A DNA stretch of 64,000 nt from Akkermansiaceae bacterium (GTDB taxonomy: Bacteria; Verrucomicrobiota; Verrucomicrobiia; Verrucomicrobiales; Akkermansiaceae): assembly GCA_017798145.1 (NCBI GenBank), contig CP059069.1, positions 1,163,226-1,227,225 on the forward strand, written 5' to 3'. Position 1 is the stretch's first letter. Each line of letters begins with the position of its first letter. The position numbers and the translations under genes were made by a program. The notes beneath the pieces are model-generated. The model was not told the DNA's origin and did no database searches. It saw only the letters and a program-made list of their open reading frames with translations. Shown here piece after piece: positions 2,903 to 20,711 of the stretch.

Positions 2903-3586
2903 ATGGTCAACGAACTAATCGCAGATATGGTGGACGCAGGCGTCCACTACGGTCACCAAACGAAAAAATGGAACCCGCGCATGAAGCCCTTCCTCATGAA
3001 GGACAAGGGCGGGATCTACATCATCAACCTCGAGAAAACCGTCCAGCAGCTCGACAAGGCCGCGGACTTCCTCGCAGATCTCGCAGGAAAAAACAAGAAC
3101 GTCCTCTTCGTCGGCTGCAAGCGCCAGGCACAGGATGCCATCCGCGAGGCCGCTGAGGCCACCGGACAACACTACGTCAACCACCGCTGGCTCGGCGGCA
3201 TGCTCACCAACGCGACCACCGTCCGCAAATCCGTCGAGCGCCTCCGCTACCTCGAGAACATCGAGAAACAACCCGAGTTCAAATCCATGTCCAAGAAGGA
3301 ACTCGCCGCCCTCGGCCGCGAGCGCGAAAAACTACTCCGCAACCTCCGCGGTGTCCGCGATCTCGACAAAAAGCCAGATGCCATCGTCATCGTCGATTCC
3401 GCCCGCGAGACCATCGCCGTCGCCGAGGCGCACCGCCTTGAGATCCCCATCGTCGCAATCGTAGATACCAACGCCGACCCTGCCAAAGTCCAATACCCGA
3501 TTCCCGGCAACGACGACGCGATCCGATCCATCCGCATCATCCTCCAGAACCTGGTCGATGCCATGGTCAAGGCAAAGAAGAAGTAA
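2903..3586 (+). CDS. rpsB: 30S ribosomal protein S2
   Basis: Ribosomal protein uS2 of the small subunit, 227 residues. The diagnostic blocks are all present: AGVHYGHQTKKWNPRMKPF near the N-terminus, IINLEKTVQQLDKA, VNHRWLGGMLTNATTVRKS, DAIVIVDSARETIAVAEA, IPIVAIVDTNADP and VQYPIPGNDDAIRSI. The start MVNELIADMV aligns with the usual S2 start. An earlier in-frame ATG at 2765 would add 46 residues of non-S2 sequence. The leader AGCAGAACAAACAAA is A-rich with no Shine-Dalgarno motif. It precedes tsf in the usual rpsB-tsf order with a 78-base spacer. Confidence 0.97.
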   Translation: MVNELIADMVDAGVHYGHQTKKWNPRMKPFLMKDKGGIYIINLEKTVQQLDKAADFLADLAGKNKNVLFVGCKRQAQDAIREAAEATGQHYVNHRWLGGMLTNATTVRKSVERLRYLENIEKQPEFKSMSKKELAALGREREKLLRNLRGVRDLDKKPDAIVIVDSARETIAVAEAHRLEIPIVAIVDTNADPAKVQYPIPGNDDAIRSIRIILQNLVDAMVKAKKK

Positions 3587-8915: not shown

Positions 8916-10328
8916 TCAATAACGGTAATGATCCGCCTTGAACGGGCCGTCCGGGGAAAGTCCGATGTAGTCGGCCTGTGCCTGGGTGAGCCGGGTCAGC
9001 TTCGCCCCGATCTTCGCGAGGTGGAGGCGTGCAACCTCTTCGTCGAGATGCTTCGGAAGCACGGTCACCTGTCCGGCCTTGTAGCTATCCCGGTTTTCCC
9101 ACAGGTCGATCTGGGCGAGCGTCTGGTTGGTGAAGCTGTTCGACATCACGAAGGACGGATGGCCCGTTCCGCAGCCGAGGTTCACGAGGCGACCCTCGGC
9201 GAGCATGTAGATGCTGTTGCCGGTCGGGAAGGTGTATTTGTCCACCTGCGGCTTGATGTTGAGACGGGTTACGTCAGGCGCCTTGTTGAGCTTGTCCATC
9301 TGGATCTCGTTGTCGAAGTGGCCGATGTTGCAGACGATGGCCTGGTCTTTCATCTTCGACATGTGATCGAGGGTGATGATGTCCTTGTTGCCGGTGGTGG
9401 TGACGTAGATATCGCCCCAGCCGAGGGTGTCCTCGATGGTGAGGACGCGGAAACCTTCCATCGCCGCCTGGAGGGCGCAGATCGGATCGACCTCGGTGAC
9501 GACGACCTGGGCGCCGGCTCCGCGGAGAGCCTGGGCGCAGCCTTTGCCGACATCGCCGTAGCCGAGCACGACCCCGACCTTTCCGGAGATCATCACGTCG
9601 GTGGCGCGCTTGATGCCATCAAGCAGGGATTCGCGGCAGCCATATAGGTTGTCGAACTTCGATTTGGTGACGGAGTCATTGACGTTGATCGCAGGGACAA
9701 GGAGGGTGCCCGCCTTGGCCATCTGATAGAGGCGGTGAACGCCGGTGGTGGTCTCTTCGGAAACGCCTTTCCAGTCTTTGACGATGGTGTGGAAAATACC
9801 GGGCTGCCTGACCTTGATGTCGGCAAGCAGATCCTTGATGACCTGCTCCTCCTCGCTCTCGCCGGGGCTTTCGTGCCAGGTGGAGCCGTTTTCCATTTCG
9901 TAGCCCTTGTGGATCAGCAGGGTCGCGTCGCCACCATCATCGACGATGAGCTGCGGGCCGAGGCCGTCCTTGTTGACGAGCGCCTGCCAGGTGCACCACC
10001 AATATTCCTCAAGTGTCTCGCCTTTCCATGCGAAGACCGGGATCTCGCGGGCTGCCATCGCGGCGGCGGCGTGGTCTTGCGTCGAGAAGATGTTGCATGA
10101 GACCCAGCGCACATCTGCGCCGAGATCCGCAAGCGTCTCGATGAGCACCGCGGTCTGGATGGTCATGTGCAGGGAGCCCATGATGCGGACGCCCTGGAGC
10201 GGCTTGGTCTTGCCGTATTTCTCGCGGGTCGCCATCAGGCCGGGCATCTCGTGCTCGGCGATGTCGATTTCCTTGCGGCCGAAATCGGCGAGGCCGATGT
10301 CCCTTACTTTGTAGTCTGTGAAGCTCAT
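8916..10328 (-). CDS. ahcY: adenosylhomocysteinase
   Basis: S-adenosylhomocysteine hydrolase splits SAH into adenosine and homocysteine and so relieves product inhibition of methyltransferases. The 470 residues include the substrate motifs ([34 protein letters not shown]), the NAD-binding glycine loop [15 protein letters not shown] and the conserved C-terminal end FKADHYRY. It also has the extra segment of long-form bacterial enzymes ([20 protein letters not shown]). It lies 43 bases downstream of metK on the same strand, with CTGAACA-type heptamers in the spacer instead of a Shine-Dalgarno sequence, and shares metK's terminator. Confidence 0.97.
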
Positions 10329-10339
10329 AAAATATTTCT

Positions 10340-10366
10340 AGTGTTCAGTTGTCGGTGTTCAGTGTG
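10340..10366 (-). repeat. heptamer repeat (CTGAACA) in the metK-ahcY spacer
   Basis: Read towards ahcY, the spacer contains CTGAACA-CCGACAA-CTGAACA-CT. This is two exact heptamers flanking one degenerate copy in the same phase. The same heptamer precedes tsf. Confidence 0.65.
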
Positions 10367-10371
10367 ATTGC

Positions 10372-11586
10372 TCAGGCGATTGCCTTCTTGAGGGCGGAGG
10401 CCTTGTCGGTCTTCTCCCATGTGATGTCGGAATCCTCCTTGCCGAAGTGGCCGTAGTTGGTGGTCTTCGAGTAGATGGGGCGGAGCAGGTTGAGCTGCTT
10501 GACGATGTCCGCGGGATTGAAGGAGAAAACCTTGAGCACGGCGCCGAGGATCTTCGCGTCATCGACGGTGCCGGTGCCGAAGGTGTCGATGTGGACGCTG
10601 ACCGGTTCGGGATGGCCGATCGCATAGGCGAACTGCACCTCGCACTTCTCTGCGAGACCGGCTGCGACGACATTTTTCGCGACCCAACGGCCCATGTAGG
10701 CGGCGGAGCGGTCGACCTTCGAGGGATCCTTTCCGGAGAAGGCGCCGCCGCCGTGGCGGCCGCTGCCTCCGTAGGTATCGACGATGATCTTGCGCCCGGT
10801 CAGGCCGCTGTCGCCCTGGGGCCCGCCGATGACGAACTTGCCGGTGGGATTGATGAGAAACTCGGTTTTCGAGGTGAGCATTTCCTTCGGGAGCACTTTC
10901 TTGATGACCTGCTCGATGCAGAATTTCTCGATCTCCGCGTGGGTCACATCCGCGGTGTGCTGGGTGGAGATGACAACATTGACGATGCGGGTCGGCTTGC
11001 CATCGACGTATTCGACGGAGACCTGCGTCTTGGCATCCGGGCGCAGCCAAGGTGCGAGCTTGCCGGCCTTGCGGATGCGGGTCATCTCACGGCCGAGGCG
11101 GTGCGCGAACATGATCGGCGCAGGCATCAGCTCAGGGGTCTCGTTGCAGGCGTAGCCGAACATGATGCCCTGGTCGCCGGCTCCCTGCTTGGCGGTTTTC
11201 TTACCTTCCGCCGCCTTTGCGTCAACGCCTTGTGCGATGTCCGGGCTCTGGATGGTGAGATAGTTGTTGATGAAAAGAGTGTCGGCGTGGAAGACATCGT
11301 CGCTGTTCGTGTAGCCGATGCCGCGGACTGCATCACGGATCACCTTGCCGATGTTGATCACTTCGTCGATCGGCTTGGTCGTGCCTTTCTTCTTGTCCTG
11401 GAGTTTCGGGATCGTGATCTCACCGCCGACGACGACGATGTTGCTTTTCACGAAGGTCTCGCAGGCAACGCGACTCTTTGGATCGATGGCCAGGCAGGCG
11501 TCGAGGATGGCATCGGAGATGGTGTCCGAAACCTTGTCCGGGTGGCCTTCGCCGACGGATTCTGAGGAGAATATGTAGGTGCTCAT
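10372..11586 (-). CDS. metK: S-adenosylmethionine synthetase
   Basis: Methionine adenosyltransferase makes SAM from methionine and ATP. The start [20 protein letters not shown] at 11586 matches the conserved MetK N-terminus; the in-frame extension to 11643 does not belong to the family. Other motifs include [20 protein letters not shown] (the methionine adenosyltransferase signature), [15 protein letters not shown] and the metal/phosphate loop region. With 404 residues it has standard length. It is the first gene of a metK-ahcY operon and starts 57 bases from the divergent ArsR-methyltransferase gene, which is probably its regulator. Confidence 0.97.
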
Positions 11587-11643
11587 GTGTTTTTCAATTT
11601 TCGTATCGTCAAATCGCGATGCGTTGATGTAAACTTTACCCAC
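11587..11643. promoter_or_regulatory. divergent control region between metK and arsR-methyltransferase
   Basis: Only 57 bases separate the two start codons, so promoters and operator must overlap. CGTCAA (11607-11612) and TTGATG (11624-11629) form an imperfect inverted repeat (TCAA-N11-TTGA) around the self-complementary core ATCGCGAT. This is a plausible ArsR-family binding site. No Shine-Dalgarno sequence is visible on either side. SAM and SAH riboswitches are excluded by the short length. Confidence 0.45.
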
Positions 11644-12558
11644 ATGGAGTCAATCATCAAATCCCTGAAATTGGTTTCCGATCCCACAAGGCTCCGCATC
11701 CTGTCGCTGCTCCTCCAGGACGCGCTGACCGTGGCCGAGCTTCAGGAAATCATGGGGATGGGGCAGAGCCGCATTTCCACCCAGCTCTCCCAGCTCAAGG
11801 CCGCTGGGCTGGTGAACGATGAACGAAGCGGGAAAAACAACGTCTATTCCGCCGACATACCCGATGCCCTGCTGCCGATCACGCTCCGAGCGGCGGGGGA
11901 GATCCCGGAGCTTGGAGCGGACAACACCGCCCTGCGCCACATCCTCTCCAAGCGCAAGGACTACGCCCGCGCCTACTTCGATGAGCTGGCAGGCCGTTTC
12001 GGGAAAGACTACGTGCCGGGCCGCTCCTGGAAAGCCCTCGCCGAAGCGCTCATCAAGGTTCTCAATTACCGCCGCGTGGCCGATCTCGGCGCAGGCGAGG
12101 GCACGCTCTCGCAGCTCCTCGCGCAGCGTGCCGAAAAGGTGATCGCCATCGACCTATCCCCGAAAATGGTGGATTACGCCCAGAAACTGGCCGTCGCAAA
12201 CGGGCTCACCAACCTCGAATTCCGCATCGGTGACATCGAAGAGCCACCCATCGACGCCGAATCAATCGACCTCGCCATCCTCAGCCAGGCGCTCCATCAC
12301 GCGGAGAACCCGCAGCGTGCCATCGACTCGGCGTTCCGCATCCTCCGGCCCGGCGGCAGGCTGATCATCCTCGATCTGCTGCAGCACAATTTTCCCGAAG
12401 CGCGCGAGCTCTACGCAGACCGCTGGCTCGGGTTTTCCGAGAGCCATATCCACTCCATGATGCAGAAATCCGGCTTCCAGGGGATCGAAACGCTCATCGC
12501 CGACAAGGAGGAGACCGCACCAAAATTCCAGACATTGCTGGCGCTCGCATCGAGGTGA
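11644..12558 (+). CDS. ArsR-family regulator fused to a SAM-dependent methyltransferase
   Basis: A 304-residue fusion. Residues 1-85 are a winged helix of the ArsR type ([30 protein letters not shown]). No obvious ArsR metal-binding CxC motif is present. Residues 110-300 are a class I methyltransferase with the SAM-binding loop [15 protein letters not shown] (146-160) and post-motifs [28 protein letters not shown] and [13 protein letters not shown]. It is divergent from metK-ahcY. In Proteobacteria the ArsR-family protein SahR controls SAM-cycle genes in response to SAH. By analogy this fusion probably senses SAH or SAM through its methyltransferase fold and represses metK-ahcY. That role is inferred from context. 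The start at 11644 begins exactly at the HTH domain. Confidence 0.88.
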
Positions 12559-16189: not shown

Positions 16190-16696
16190 TCACTCAGCGG
16201 TCTTGCCCGTTTCCACAGGCAGCCCTGCCTCCCTCCAGGTGTCGATGCCCGCACCGAAAACCAGGATGTCGTAATCGCGGCGCGCCAATTTTTTCGCTAC
16301 GTTGCGTGCTTCCGGACAGCCGCTGTTGAAGCAATACAAGACGACCTTCTTGCCATCGTTCAGGGCTCGCTGGATCTCGAGGTCGCGTTTCTGCACCTGG
16401 GCATCATACTCGGTGTAAGGCCAGTTCACCGCCCCGGGGATGTGATCCTTGGCATAGAAGTATGCGACGCGGACATCGTAGACCAGGGCGGCGCCGGCTT
16501 GCTGGAGCGCGAAAAACTCGTCAAGGGCAATTCCCCTCGAGCTGCCGAGCTTGCGGTTCGTCGGCGGCATTTTCACCGGCTTGGCCTTAGGCTCGCCAAC
16601 CGACGTCGGCGGAGCCGGCGCAACTTCCGAGCACGAAACGGAGGCCGCGCAAACCGCAGCGAGCAAAAAATTCACCCTTGGAATCCAAAGGCTCAC
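16190..16696 (-). CDS. rhodanese-domain lipoprotein
   Basis: A 168-residue exported protein with one rhodanese domain. The start is a GTG at 16696 that overlaps the sodN stop (GTGA), giving VSLWIPRVNFLLAAVCAASV, then SCSEVAP, a hydrophobic leader with a possible lipobox at SVSC. The domain spans about 65-165: ALVYDVRVAYFYAKDHIPGA and the active-site loop VVLYCFNSGCPEARNVAKKL, with Cys where sulfurtransferases carry the persulfide. A much longer frame up to 16780 would run into sodN and lacks a sensible N-terminus. Coupling to a nickel superoxide dismutase suggests envelope redox or thiol work, perhaps repair of the nickel-ligating cysteines. That link is inference. Confidence 0.82.
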   Translation of the reverse strand: MSLWIPRVNFLLAAVCAASVSCSEVAPAPPTSVGEPKAKPVKMPPTNRKLGSSRGIALDEFFALQQAGAALVYDVRVAYFYAKDHIPGAVNWPYTEYDAQVQKRDLEIQRALNDGKKVVLYCFNSGCPEARNVAKKLARRDYDILVFGAGIDTWREAGLPVETGKTAE

Positions 16697-17148
16697 TTTT
16701 TCGTCCCGAATTCCTTGGCGAAGGAATGAAGCAGATCGTGCAGCTTTGTCACGTTGGCCATATCGGTGGATTGCTTGCATTTCATCGCCGCAACGATGAC
16801 CTCATGGCAGAGCCTGAGCTTAGCGATATAGGCCTCATTTTGCTCATCGTTTTCCGGAAGTTTCAGACGCTGCGCCATGAAATGGTTGAGCACCTTTTCC
16901 TGGAGATCCTGCGCATGCGTCTCCTTGTTCGTCGTCCAGCGGACGATCTGATGCGCATTGGCAGCGGGATCCTTCGAGAGCGCGGCGATCTCCACACACG
17001 CTTTTTCGATCGTGAGGAAATCGGTGTTCATCGAACCGATCACGTTGTCGTCGTCGAAAATCCCGCAAGGCACCTGGCAATGCGCGGAAACATTTGTCGG
17101 GATTGCTGCGACAAGCAGCACGGCTGAGAGCAATTCTGTCAGTTTCAT
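16693..17148 (-). CDS. sodN: nickel superoxide dismutase with Sec signal peptide
   Basis: A 151-residue NiSOD-family protein. Residues 1-22 (MKLTELLSAVLLVAAIPTNV, then SA) form a clean signal peptide whose predicted cut after VSA exposes His-Cys-Gln-Val-Pro-Cys-Gly at the mature N-terminus. That equals the nickel hook HCxxPCGx of NiSOD: His1, Cys2 and Cys6 bind nickel. Two differences from Streptomyces NiSOD are visible: Tyr9 is Phe and Asp3 is Gln. The helical body (SMNTDFLTIEKACVEIAALS, NAHQIVRWTTNKETHA) matches the four-helix bundle. Cytoplasmic NiSODs need the SodX peptidase to expose His1; here signal peptidase could do this during export. It is followed by a rhodanese lipoprotein with a 4-base overlap. 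Confidence 0.88.
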   Translation of the reverse strand: MKLTELLSAVLLVAAIPTNVSAHCQVPCGIFDDDNVIGSMNTDFLTIEKACVEIAALSKDPAANAHQIVRWTTNKETHAQDLQEKVLNHFMAQRLKLPENDEQNEAYIAKLRLCHEVIVAAMKCKQSTDMANVTKLHDLLHSFAKEFGTKK

Positions 17149-17199: not shown

Positions 17200-17796
17200 T
17201 CAGCCCGCGATGACCCCGTTCATCCTTGCGTCATGCTCCTCCATGACGATCGATTCCACCAGCTGGTAGCCGTAGCAAACCCCAAGCTTCACCGCATCCG
17301 GGCGCGCCCGCTCCAGCATCCTGTCGTAAAAACCCTTGCCCCTGCCTATCCTCCCGCCCTTCAGGTCAAAGCCCAGCCCCGGGCAGAGAAAGAGATCCAC
17401 CTCATCGATCCTCACCCTCCTTAGCTTCGCCTTCGGCTCCAGGATCCCGAATTTCCCCTTTTTCAGATCCTTTTCAAAATCCCCCACCTCATGGAAAACC
17501 AACTCCTCCCCCTCCACCCTGGGAAAAACCCAGACCCTCTCGATCACACCCGGCAGCGCCCGCAGATTCACCTCCCCCGGCAGCGCCGCAAACACCGCAA
17601 CCACTTTCAGCGCCGGCCTTTCCGCAAGATACGCCGCAATCTCCCTCACCACCGCCGCATCGTCGCCATCCGGGTATTCCGCGACCCTTCGCCGCAGATC
17701 CTCCCGCAGCCTGTCCTTCAGATACGCCTTCGCAAACGGTCCGACAAGATGGCAGGCCAGAAGGTCGTCGGGATTTGTCACTTGCCACTCGCCCAT
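17200..17796 (-). CDS. 5-formyltetrahydrofolate cyclo-ligase
   Basis: A 198-residue member of the MTHFS family, which converts 5-formyl-THF to 5,10-methenyl-THF with ATP. The N-terminal helix KDRLREDLRRRVAEY resembles the family start. The C-terminal block is diagnostic: DLFLCPGLGFDLKGGRIGRG, then KGFYDRML contains the GxRLGRGKGFYDR substrate/ATP motif. The start at 17796 (MGEWQVTNPDD) gives normal length; longer readings run across the divergent gene at 17818. The two start codons are only 21 bases apart. folK lies 3 kb away, but I see no operon link. Confidence 0.9.
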   Translation of the reverse strand: MGEWQVTNPDDLLACHLVGPFAKAYLKDRLREDLRRRVAEYPDGDDAAVVREIAAYLAERPALKVVAVFAALPGEVNLRALPGVIERVWVFPRVEGEELVFHEVGDFEKDLKKGKFGILEPKAKLRRVRIDEVDLFLCPGLGFDLKGGRIGRGKGFYDRMLERARPDAVKLGVCYGYQLVESIVMEEHDARMNGVIAG

Positions 17797-19004: not shown

Positions 19005-20711
19005 ATGGAACATCCCAACAGAGCAATGGCCATTGCAACCGCATGCCTCACCCTCACCCTCGTGCCAGGCACCGCCTTCGCAAAACCCGGATCCGTCGCC
19101 GAGTTCTCCCCGGATGAGTCACGCAAACTCGGATGGCAGGTCGTGAACGACGGCGTCATGGGCGGCCTTTCCAAAGGCAAGCTCTCGATCGGCGCGGACG
19201 GCATACTCAGCTTCAGCGGGAACCTCTCGCTTGAGAACAACGGCGGATTCTCCTCCCTGAGGACGAATGATGTTTCCCTCGATCTGAGCGATGCGAAAGG
19301 CCTCGCCGCCCGCGTCAAGGGCGATGGCCGCACCTACCAGATCCGACTCGCCACCGATGCACGCTTCCGTGGCATGGAGGTTTCCTTCTCCGCTGATTTC
19401 CCCACGGAAAAAGGCAAATGGACCGAGGTGGAAATCCCGTTTTCCGACTTCACAGGAAGCTTCCGCGGCATGAGCCTCAATAACGAAAATTCGACCCCTG
19501 CCAAGATCCGCCGCCTCGGGATACTTCTCGGCGACAAGAAAGCGGGCGCCTTCGAAATGCAGATCGACTGGATCAGGACATACGGTGCGAACAAGCAAGA
19601 GGACGGCAATTCCATCCTCTCCGCCGCCGCAAAGGACGGTCGCTTCAAGACCCTCGCCGCCGCGATCCAATCCGCAGGCCTCGCGGAAACCCTCTCCGGA
19701 GATGGCCCCTTGACCGTCTTCGCTCCCACGGACGAGGCTTTCGCAAAACTGCCGCAAGGCACCGTCGGGGATCTGCTCAAGCCGGAGAACATCGACCAAC
19801 TCAAAGCTGTCATCACCATGCACGTCACCCGTGGAAAAGCCGGGCTGGCCGATGCGCTCAAGTCAGGCAGCGTGAAATCGCTCCAAGGCTCTCCGCTCAA
19901 CATCGCCTTCGCCAAAGGCCGGGTGCGCGTCAACGATGCCGCCATCCTTGACGCGGATCTAGCCTGCGGGAACGGTGTCATCCATGTGATCGATTCCGTC
20001 CTCCTTCCGCCGCCGCCGGAAAACGACATCCTCGCGGTCGCGGAAAAAAACGGGAATTTCAAGACACTCATCGCCGCCGTCAAGGCTGCCGGCCTCGTCG
20101 ATGCCCTCAGCGCCGATGGACCCATCACCATCCTCGCACCCACCGACGAGGCATTCGATCGTCTTCCGGAGGGAACCGTGGAATCCCTCCTGCAAAAGGA
20201 AAACCTCGGGAAACTCCGGTCCATCCTCACCGGTCATGCCATCCCCGGGAAAGTATCCGCAGGTGATGCCCTCAACGCCCGCAAGGCAAAATCCATCTCC
20301 GGACAGACGATCAACTTCGCCATCAAGGACGGCACTTTGAAAGCGAACTCATCCACCATCCTATCCACCGATATCGCCTGCGACAACGGCATCATCCACA
20401 TCATCGACGCCGTCCTCCTGCCTGAAGGAAATGACAAAAAATCGGACGCACCCGCCAGCGCCCTGAAAAGCATCGAGAACGCCATCGACCGCGGGGTGCC
20501 GATCTACAATTCCGGAGACCCTGCGAAGTGCGCAGCCATCTACCGTGAGTGCCTCATGTCCCTCTCCAAGGACAAATCCCTCGATGCCAGGCTACGCGAA
20601 ATGCTCTCCACGGTCGCCGAGCGCGGCTCCCGACATGACAACGCGGAAGACCAGGCCTGGCTGTACCGCAGCGCGCTGGACAAGGCATACGCCATCATCG
20701 GACAGGACTGA
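19005..20711 (+). CDS. secreted CIA30 domain plus two fasciclin (FAS1) domains
   Basis: A 568-residue exported protein with an unusual domain chain. After a signal peptide (ending GTAFA-KP, about residue 26), residues 32-190 form a CIA30/NDUFAF1-like domain (WQVVNDGVMGGLSKGKLSI, KGKWTEVEIPFSDFTGSFRG). Two FAS1 domains follow at about 200-330 and 340-465, each with the H1 and H2 motifs (LTVFAPTDEAFAKLPQGTV and ITILAPTDEAFDRLPEGTV; GNGVIHVIDSVLLP and DNGIIHIIDAVLLP). The C-terminal 90 residues are helical (AAIYRECLMSLSKDKS). FAS1 domains mediate adhesion and CIA30 domains are galactose-binding-like folds, so a cell-surface binding role is likely. The start could also be the ATG at 19026. Confidence 0.85.
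   Translation: MEHPNRAMAIATACLTLTLVPGTAFAKPGSVAEFSPDESRKLGWQVVNDGVMGGLSKGKLSIGADGILSFSGNLSLENNGGFSSLRTNDVSLDLSDAKGLAARVKGDGRTYQIRLATDARFRGMEVSFSADFPTEKGKWTEVEIPFSDFTGSFRGMSLNNENSTPAKIRRLGILLGDKKAGAFEMQIDWIRTYGANKQEDGNSILSAAAKDGRFKTLAAAIQSAGLAETLSGDGPLTVFAPTDEAFAKLPQGTVGDLLKPENIDQLKAVITMHVTRGKAGLADALKSGSVKSLQGSPLNIAFAKGRVRVNDAAILDADLACGNGVIHVIDSVLLPPPPENDILAVAEKNGNFKTLIAAVKAAGLVDALSADGPITILAPTDEAFDRLPEGTVESLLQKENLGKLRSILTGHAIPGKVSAGDALNARKAKSISGQTINFAIKDGTLKANSSTILSTDIACDNGIIHIIDAVLLPEGNDKKSDAPASALKSIENAIDRGVPIYNSGDPAKCAAIYRECLMSLSKDKSLDARLREMLSTVAERGSRHDNAEDQAWLYRSALDKAYAIIGQD

Follow-up and report, generated by a model that had tools for sequence, protein, structure and literature searches.

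Nickel superoxide dismutase (NiSOD) has been known as a cytoplasmic enzyme dependent on SodX. The closest described systems to the locus considered here are the SodN proteins of Streptomyces and marine cyanobacteria (TIGR02753; SodX is TIGR02754), which have a short leader, Asp at position 3 of the hook, and proline at position 11. Cyanobacteria with sodN and without sodX are read, in the relevant part of one report, as perhaps unable to use NiSOD (PMC8346466). In the ubiquitin-NiSOD fusions of algae, the sequence running straight up to the hook is ubiquitin (PMC6332867). The planctomycete Roseiconus lacunae encodes a Sod_Ni protein (WP_230780104.1) in which a signal peptide is followed by a metal-binding His, so that a NiSOD with this combination is already in print in the signal-strapping paper (PMC12537917). 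In the portions of that paper covered here, the R. lacunae protein serves only as a search query; SodX, maturation, and the two NiSOD types distinguished below are not treated, and its main text uses neither the term rhodanese nor the term NiSOD.

We analysed a stretch of 64,000 nucleotides from an Akkermansiaceae bacterium, here called the window. On its minus strand, genes for 5-formyltetrahydrofolate cyclo-ligase (5-FCL), a Sod_Ni family protein, and a rhodanese-domain protein follow one another in this order (Table 1). The Sod_Ni match is the only one in the 4.39-Mb genome, which is a single contig. The protein resembles SodN in its fold (Z 14.4), its H-C-x-x-P-C-G hook, its Arg/Lys/Glu core, and a leader whose last residues, immediately ahead of His, are a small-x-small motif. 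Unlike SodN, it and the relatives with an HC[QE] hook have a long hydrophobic export leader, Gln or Glu at position 3, and Asp at position 11, and no SodX exceeds the cut-off in the window genome or in the Verrucomicrobiota genomes with NiSOD. It also differs from the algal fusions, which carry ubiquitin instead of an export signal. Elsewhere in the window, positions 19005-20711 (+) encode a CIA30 domain and then two fasciclin stretches in the same protein, and positions 8916-12558 presumably hold S-adenosylhomocysteinase- and S-adenosylmethionine synthetase-like genes beside a regulator-methyltransferase fusion.

Table 1. Positions in the window of the NiSOD gene, its parts, and its two neighbours
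Feature	Position	Strand	Evidence
Sod_Ni family protein, 151-aa precursor	16693..17148	-	PF09055, 97 bits; AF2 model; Foldseek ranks 1-16
Predicted Sec signal peptide, MKLTELLSAVLLVAAIPTNVSA; cleavage expected ahead of His23	17083..17148	-	Sequence, hydrophobic stretch, (-3,-1) rule
Nickel hook HCQVPCGIF; His1, Cys2, and Cys6 are the expected ligands	17056..17082	-	Sequence, alignment
Rhodanese-domain protein, probable lipoprotein (S-V-S-C), GTG start	16190..16696	-	PF00581, E 4.4e-11; leader Cys
5-FCL, upstream of NiSOD	17200..17796	-	TIGR02727, 117.8 bits, cut-off 84.9

The sequence-only reading had assigned the middle gene to the NiSOD family, had placed the start of the hook exactly at a predicted signal peptidase site, and had pointed out Phe for the hook Tyr (position 9) and Gln for Asp3. 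All four statements are borne out. Residues 19-151 match PF09055 with 97 bits (cut-off 25, E 1.6e-27), and the SodN equivalog model TIGR02753 gives 36 bits, which is below its cut-off of 90. The ATG product consists of the leader and then HCQVPCGIFDDD, so that VSA is followed by HCQVPCG from residue 23 and the pattern H1-C2-x-x-P5-C6-G7 stands at the predicted mature N-terminus. The Asp3 and Tyr9 of the SodN hook are replaced by Gln3 and Phe9, and the window protein is among the 21 of 234 NiSOD rows with Phe9. We take the ligand roles of His1, Cys2, and Cys6 to be those of the Streptomyces enzyme.

The AF2 model of the mature protein is a four-helix bundle (pLDDT 91.9) in which hook residues 1-4 fall below 50. 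With this model, Foldseek ranks 1 to 16 are all NiSOD chains (best E 3.8e-3, TM 0.72). Because no Foldseek match reaches E <= 0.001, the family call is based on Pfam, the motif, and the rank order. VIA-align scores its first row at Z 14.4 (111 residues, 2.2 A) and the next unrelated row at Z 12.0. Among 81 sampled HC[QE] rows, H1, C2, P5, C6, G7, R48, and K53 are invariant, and at position 54 there are 75 rows with Glu and six with Asp. These rows were chosen by hook pattern and their hook invariance is partly built in; the phylum set described below, drawn by Pfam, agrees with it. Arg48, Lys53, and Glu54 align with invariant residues of the second, HCD type of NiSOD. At the position of Streptomyces Arg47, His occurs in 79 of the 81 rows and in the window protein. 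Nickel binding and superoxide dismutase activity of the window protein are predicted from these similarities.

The window leader is hydrophobic, ends in VSA as an AxA-like site, and has no twin Arg, which led us to reject Tat export for it. The call of a signal peptide here combines hydrophobicity, length, and the cleavage rule. Of 208 distinct leaders, which are hydrophobic and have a median length of 23 amino acids, 205 satisfy the small-residue (-3,-1) rule for signal peptidase immediately ahead of the hook, compared with 14-31% at positions shifted one to eight residues upstream; the value of 0% at downstream shifts arises because the hook residues are fixed. Information in the leader columns is concentrated at -1 (3.62 bits) and -3 (2.23 bits), and columns -2 and -4 stay below 0.8 bits. 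A loose Tat-like motif is found in four of the 208. Leaders of the HCD type also keep [AV]xA (23/23), and the two types therefore differ in the hydrophobic stretch and not in the cleavage site. SodX is a relative of signal peptidase, which agrees with a small-x-small site common to both types.

This leader is common to a large bacterial branch, as judged from the N-termini of relatives, and is not unique to the window genome. In the phylum sample of Verrucomicrobiota, 62 of 387 genomes have a Sod_Ni match. The 61 that were read comprise 60 fetched loci and the window's own, with a fragment (G146) left out; these rows were drawn by Pfam and not by the hook. One of them (L095) is cut off on its 5' side and its N-terminus is unreadable, and a hydrophobic leader ends directly at H-C-x-x-P-C in 60 of the 60 others. 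The family sample has Sod_Ni matches in 76 of 244 genomes, of which 69 are new relative to the phylum set; all 69 were read, and 68 have the leader at the hook. The remaining one (L165) is a ubiquitin fusion. A scan of named genomes gives the same arrangement in 80 of 80 among the best 80 of 571 relatives, although one of these (L200) has no ATG within 45 codons. The 80 include 78 loci in 11 named phyla and two without a phylum. Since the scan patterns favour this hook, they show the spread and not the share of the HC[QE] type. Leaders that end at HCxxPC were to be expected among Sod_Ni relatives if the sequence-only reading was right, and the pattern holds over the whole family branch.

Controls for the second type were drawn from the phylum sample of Alteromonas (Pseudomonadota, 6/398 genomes), from a Planctomycetota sample (46/294) in which 30 of 50 Sod_Ni matches were turned into loci, and from two plasmid records. 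The Pseudomonadota and Planctomycetota samples hold both types, and the plasmid records are of the HCD type. NiSODs of the second type combine a short leader with the hook HCD[GIL]PC[GK][IV]YD[PT], and most of them adjoin a sodX-like gene. The 234 distinct NiSODs divide into 211 HC[QE] rows, the window included, and 23 HCD rows. Within the HC[QE] type, the leader up to the hook is hydrophobic in 210 and ubiquitin in one. The script left five loci unclassified; by eye, L166, L207, and L294 are HC[QE], L262 is HCD with a sodX-like match, and L095 is a truncated sequence. The peak hydropathy of the leader has a median of 2.62 in HC[QE] versus 0.68 in HCD rows, and an arbitrary cut at 1.9 leaves ten rows on the wrong side, namely nine HC[QE] rows (the ubiquitin fusion included) and one HCD row. 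In a quick tree (194 rows, 134 columns), a branch with SH-aLRT 100 sets the 23 HCD rows, without exception, apart from the others; the program flagged L252 and L165 as long branches that may have been joined wrongly. A second Sod_Ni match is present in four Planctomycetota genomes (G1106, G1134, G1203, and G1225). In the literature searched, with most subscription journals outside its scope, we found no account of two NiSOD types, of an export leader together with lack of SodX, or of a rhodanese neighbour, and no experiment on an HC[QE]-type protein.

Two further features of these rows can be noted. At least four His occur in the last 25 residues of 37 of 211 HC[QE] rows (L038, L041, L062, L101, L290, and others) versus none of 23 HCD rows, and the window protein has no such tail. 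The ubiquitin-NiSOD fusion (L165:1998-2594, minus strand) comes from a short contig within a Verrucomicrobiota assembly and is probably algal contamination. Its hook is HCQVPCGIF, and the quick tree groups it with the HC[QE] rows, although its branch is long and its exact placement uncertain.

A sodX-like gene is present in the fetched stretch of 21 of 23 HCD rows versus 0 of 211 HC[QE] rows (Fisher p = 6e-28, a value that overstates independence because the rows are related). Depending on the locus, the stretches cover some 1.5-5 kb on either side, and less at contig ends. The model used was built from five TIGR02754 matches (L253-L257) that lie beside HCD rows of the same table. The two HCD rows that have no such neighbour are from Nonomuraea (L252) and from a contig that ends on that side (L265). 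The window, which was searched separately, has no sodX-like ORF.

The same picture emerges genome-wide, where TIGR02754 exceeds its cut-off in none of 66 Verrucomicrobiota genomes with NiSOD. As the sequence-only reading would lead one to expect, the window genome has no SodX over the cut-off; two of its four weak matches (at 3090405 and 712319) are its signal peptidase I genes, and the others (3564309 and 761574) are likewise below the cut-off. For 46 genomes with an HC[QE] locus (46 of the best 80 loci of the named scan), two exceed the cut-off, and in a further four a weaker candidate of full length scores 31-59 bits. In all six (G613, G634, G603, G611, G594, and G627), a SodX candidate adjoins a second NiSOD of the HCD type; the weakest candidate is that of G594, where the serine-box pattern was not found. 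Three other weak matches that were opened (in G610, G613, and G594) have no adjoining NiSOD. The single plasmid control, from Novosphingobium, has a SodX match of 44 bits beside an HCD-type gene. True SodX genes can thus score far below the cut-off, and absence by cut-off alone is a weak argument. The positional control agrees with the absence of SodX for the HC[QE] type.

The rhodanese-domain protein matches PF00581 with 43.6 bits (cut-off 22.2, E 4.4e-11) and is below the NCBIfam cut-offs. It resembles periplasmic PspE-like rhodaneses in having a rhodanese domain with a Cys loop and a leader with a Cys, and differs from them in its loop, CFNSGCPEARN, which has two cysteines. Its leader motif S-V-S-C departs from the canonical lipobox consensus, [LVI][ASTVI][GAS]C. 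Behind a hydrophobic or small stretch, a Cys is preserved in 30 of 30 rhodanese leaders of the genus, and support for the assignment as a lipoprotein is only moderate. Relatives occur in 57 of 61 genomes of the genus; in-frame stops in them, of all three types, are read as matches that run past the true start, as seen directly in G509 only. A close group with 58-69% identity to the window's protein is found in G475, G556, G509, G514, G496, and G554. In L125 (G509), no in-frame ATG, GTG, or TTG occurs at about 3405-3450, between the NiSOD stop and the hydrophobic leader of the rhodanese; an ATT start behind GGAGG is possible there, or an assembly error.

A 4-nt overlap (GTGA) between the NiSOD stop and the rhodanese GTG start, recorded correctly by the sequence-only reading, had suggested co-production and a possible functional partner that protects or repairs the hook thiolates. 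The two proteins would probably share a compartment, and the order 5-FCL, NiSOD, rhodanese, with the rhodanese directly downstream of NiSOD, recurs in G475 and G509. We nevertheless consider a functional partnership very unlikely, and comparison with relatives does not support it. The rhodanese adjoins NiSOD at three of five NiSOD loci of the genus; G452 has 5-FCL and then NiSOD, without the rhodanese, and G506 has neither neighbour. Three congeners (G514, G496, and G554) carry a close homologue after 5-FCL with no NiSOD between them; G496 is listed as NiSOD-negative, and G514 and G554, which were presumably included in the family sample, are not among its 76 Sod_Ni positives. NiSOD itself is patchy in the genus, with the window genome and four congeners positive and at least 20 congeners negative, as against rhodanese relatives in nearly every genome. 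Among L036-L246, the rhodanese is found at loci of the genus (L117 and L125, from one genome, and L123), and phmmer and a genus-built HMM yielded no convincing case at the others. There, a single weak HMM match (L205, E 2.7e-4) lies on the strand opposite NiSOD, and a phmmer match in L121 has an E of 0.1. The rhodanese as a conserved NiSOD partner was accordingly rejected, there being no convincing recurrence among these loci outside the genus.

The more constant element is 5-FCL, which adjoins NiSOD at four of five NiSOD loci of the genus and is grouped with the rhodanese at six of seven close-group loci, the exception being G556, where no 5-FCL lies within about 1.5 kb of the rhodanese. On this evidence the rhodanese most plausibly belongs to the 5-FCL neighbourhood as an accessory, probably co-transcribed with NiSOD where both occur and probably only a local neighbour of it. 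A 5-FCL gene is also found at most 5 kb upstream of NiSOD in seven loci of a different family, f30 (L049, L054, L059, L069, L071, L075, and L089), directly upstream in L089. At 136 HC[QE] loci, a close same-strand ORF lies downstream of the NiSOD gene in 49 and upstream in 63. A recurrent operon partner was sought by Pfam scans of 88 of these 112 neighbour ORFs and rejected, with no family in more than four of the 88. The 25 families listed for these 88 close neighbours include no recurring nickel chaperone or transporter.

The score below the SodN equivalog cut-off and the replacement of Tyr9 by Phe, Asp3 by Gln, and the Arg47 equivalent by His would also suit an exported protein that is not a superoxide dismutase and uses its hook otherwise, for example to bind or carry nickel or copper in the periplasm. 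The His-rich tails of some HC[QE] rows fit such a role, and exported nickel and copper binders with an N-terminal His are read as metal-acquisition proteins in part of one source (PMC12537917). We regard this as unlikely, given the NiSOD chains at the top of the fold search and the invariant Arg48 and Lys53 and nearly invariant Glu54, which match invariant HCD-type residues. His1, Cys2, Pro5, and Cys6 are moreover kept in all 81 sampled rows, a count subject to the pattern choice mentioned above. Crystal entries exist, by their titles, for Y9F and D3A mutants of Streptomyces NiSOD, and both proteins reportedly keep activity.

It is highly improbable that a SodX-like peptidase, diverged beyond the reach of the model, acts in the cytoplasm on a leader that is not an export signal. 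This is so even though both types have leaders with a small-x-small ending like that of signal peptidase sites, and even though some SodX candidates beside HCD NiSODs reach only 31-44 bits, where the cut-off is 63.25. The hydrophobicity and length of the HC[QE] leaders speak against this. The model seeded from lower scorers too found nothing in the 211 HC[QE] stretches, and half of the four weak matches in the window genome are signal peptidase I.

The reading we prefer, and consider likely, is a secreted HC[QE]-type NiSOD that is exported by Sec, matured by signal peptidase I without SodX, and loaded with nickel outside the cytoplasm, where it removes superoxide. The window precursor would be exported by Sec, and a cut by signal peptidase I after VSA would expose the N-terminal His1-Cys2 of the hook in one step. 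Nickel would then bind to the hook outside the cytoplasm, and the mature enzyme would remove superoxide in the periplasm. Predicted export and cleavage of HC[QE] NiSODs are well supported by comparison of relatives; that the cut takes place, where and how nickel is loaded, and that the protein binds nickel and is active are inferred. The two cysteines, exposed in an oxidising compartment, could instead pair as a disulfide and leave nickel unbound. The earlier suggestion that general signal peptidase replaces SodX stands in so far as the leader, the lack of a SodX over the cut-off, and the branch-wide pattern make it the likely maturase, with the cleavage itself at the level of prediction. The window genome has one Fe/Mn-SOD, which lacks a signal peptide, and no match to Cu/Zn-SOD, and an exported SOD would therefore fill a gap; the NiSOD is the only SOD predicted to be exported among the three families searched there.

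More tentatively, NiSOD may have two maturation lineages, one cytoplasmic and dependent on SodX and the other exported, processed by signal peptidase I only, and supplied with nickel outside the cytoplasm, in some cases perhaps aided by a His tail. The algal ubiquitin-NiSODs would then derive from the exported type by a swap of leader. If signal peptidase I matures the exported type, the lack of sodX no longer implies, for a large share of the family, that the enzyme is inactive. Superoxide defence in the periplasm would, if this is true, draw on nickel as well as copper, and the assembly of a nickel enzyme outside the cytoplasm would become testable in a laboratory strain with one gene.
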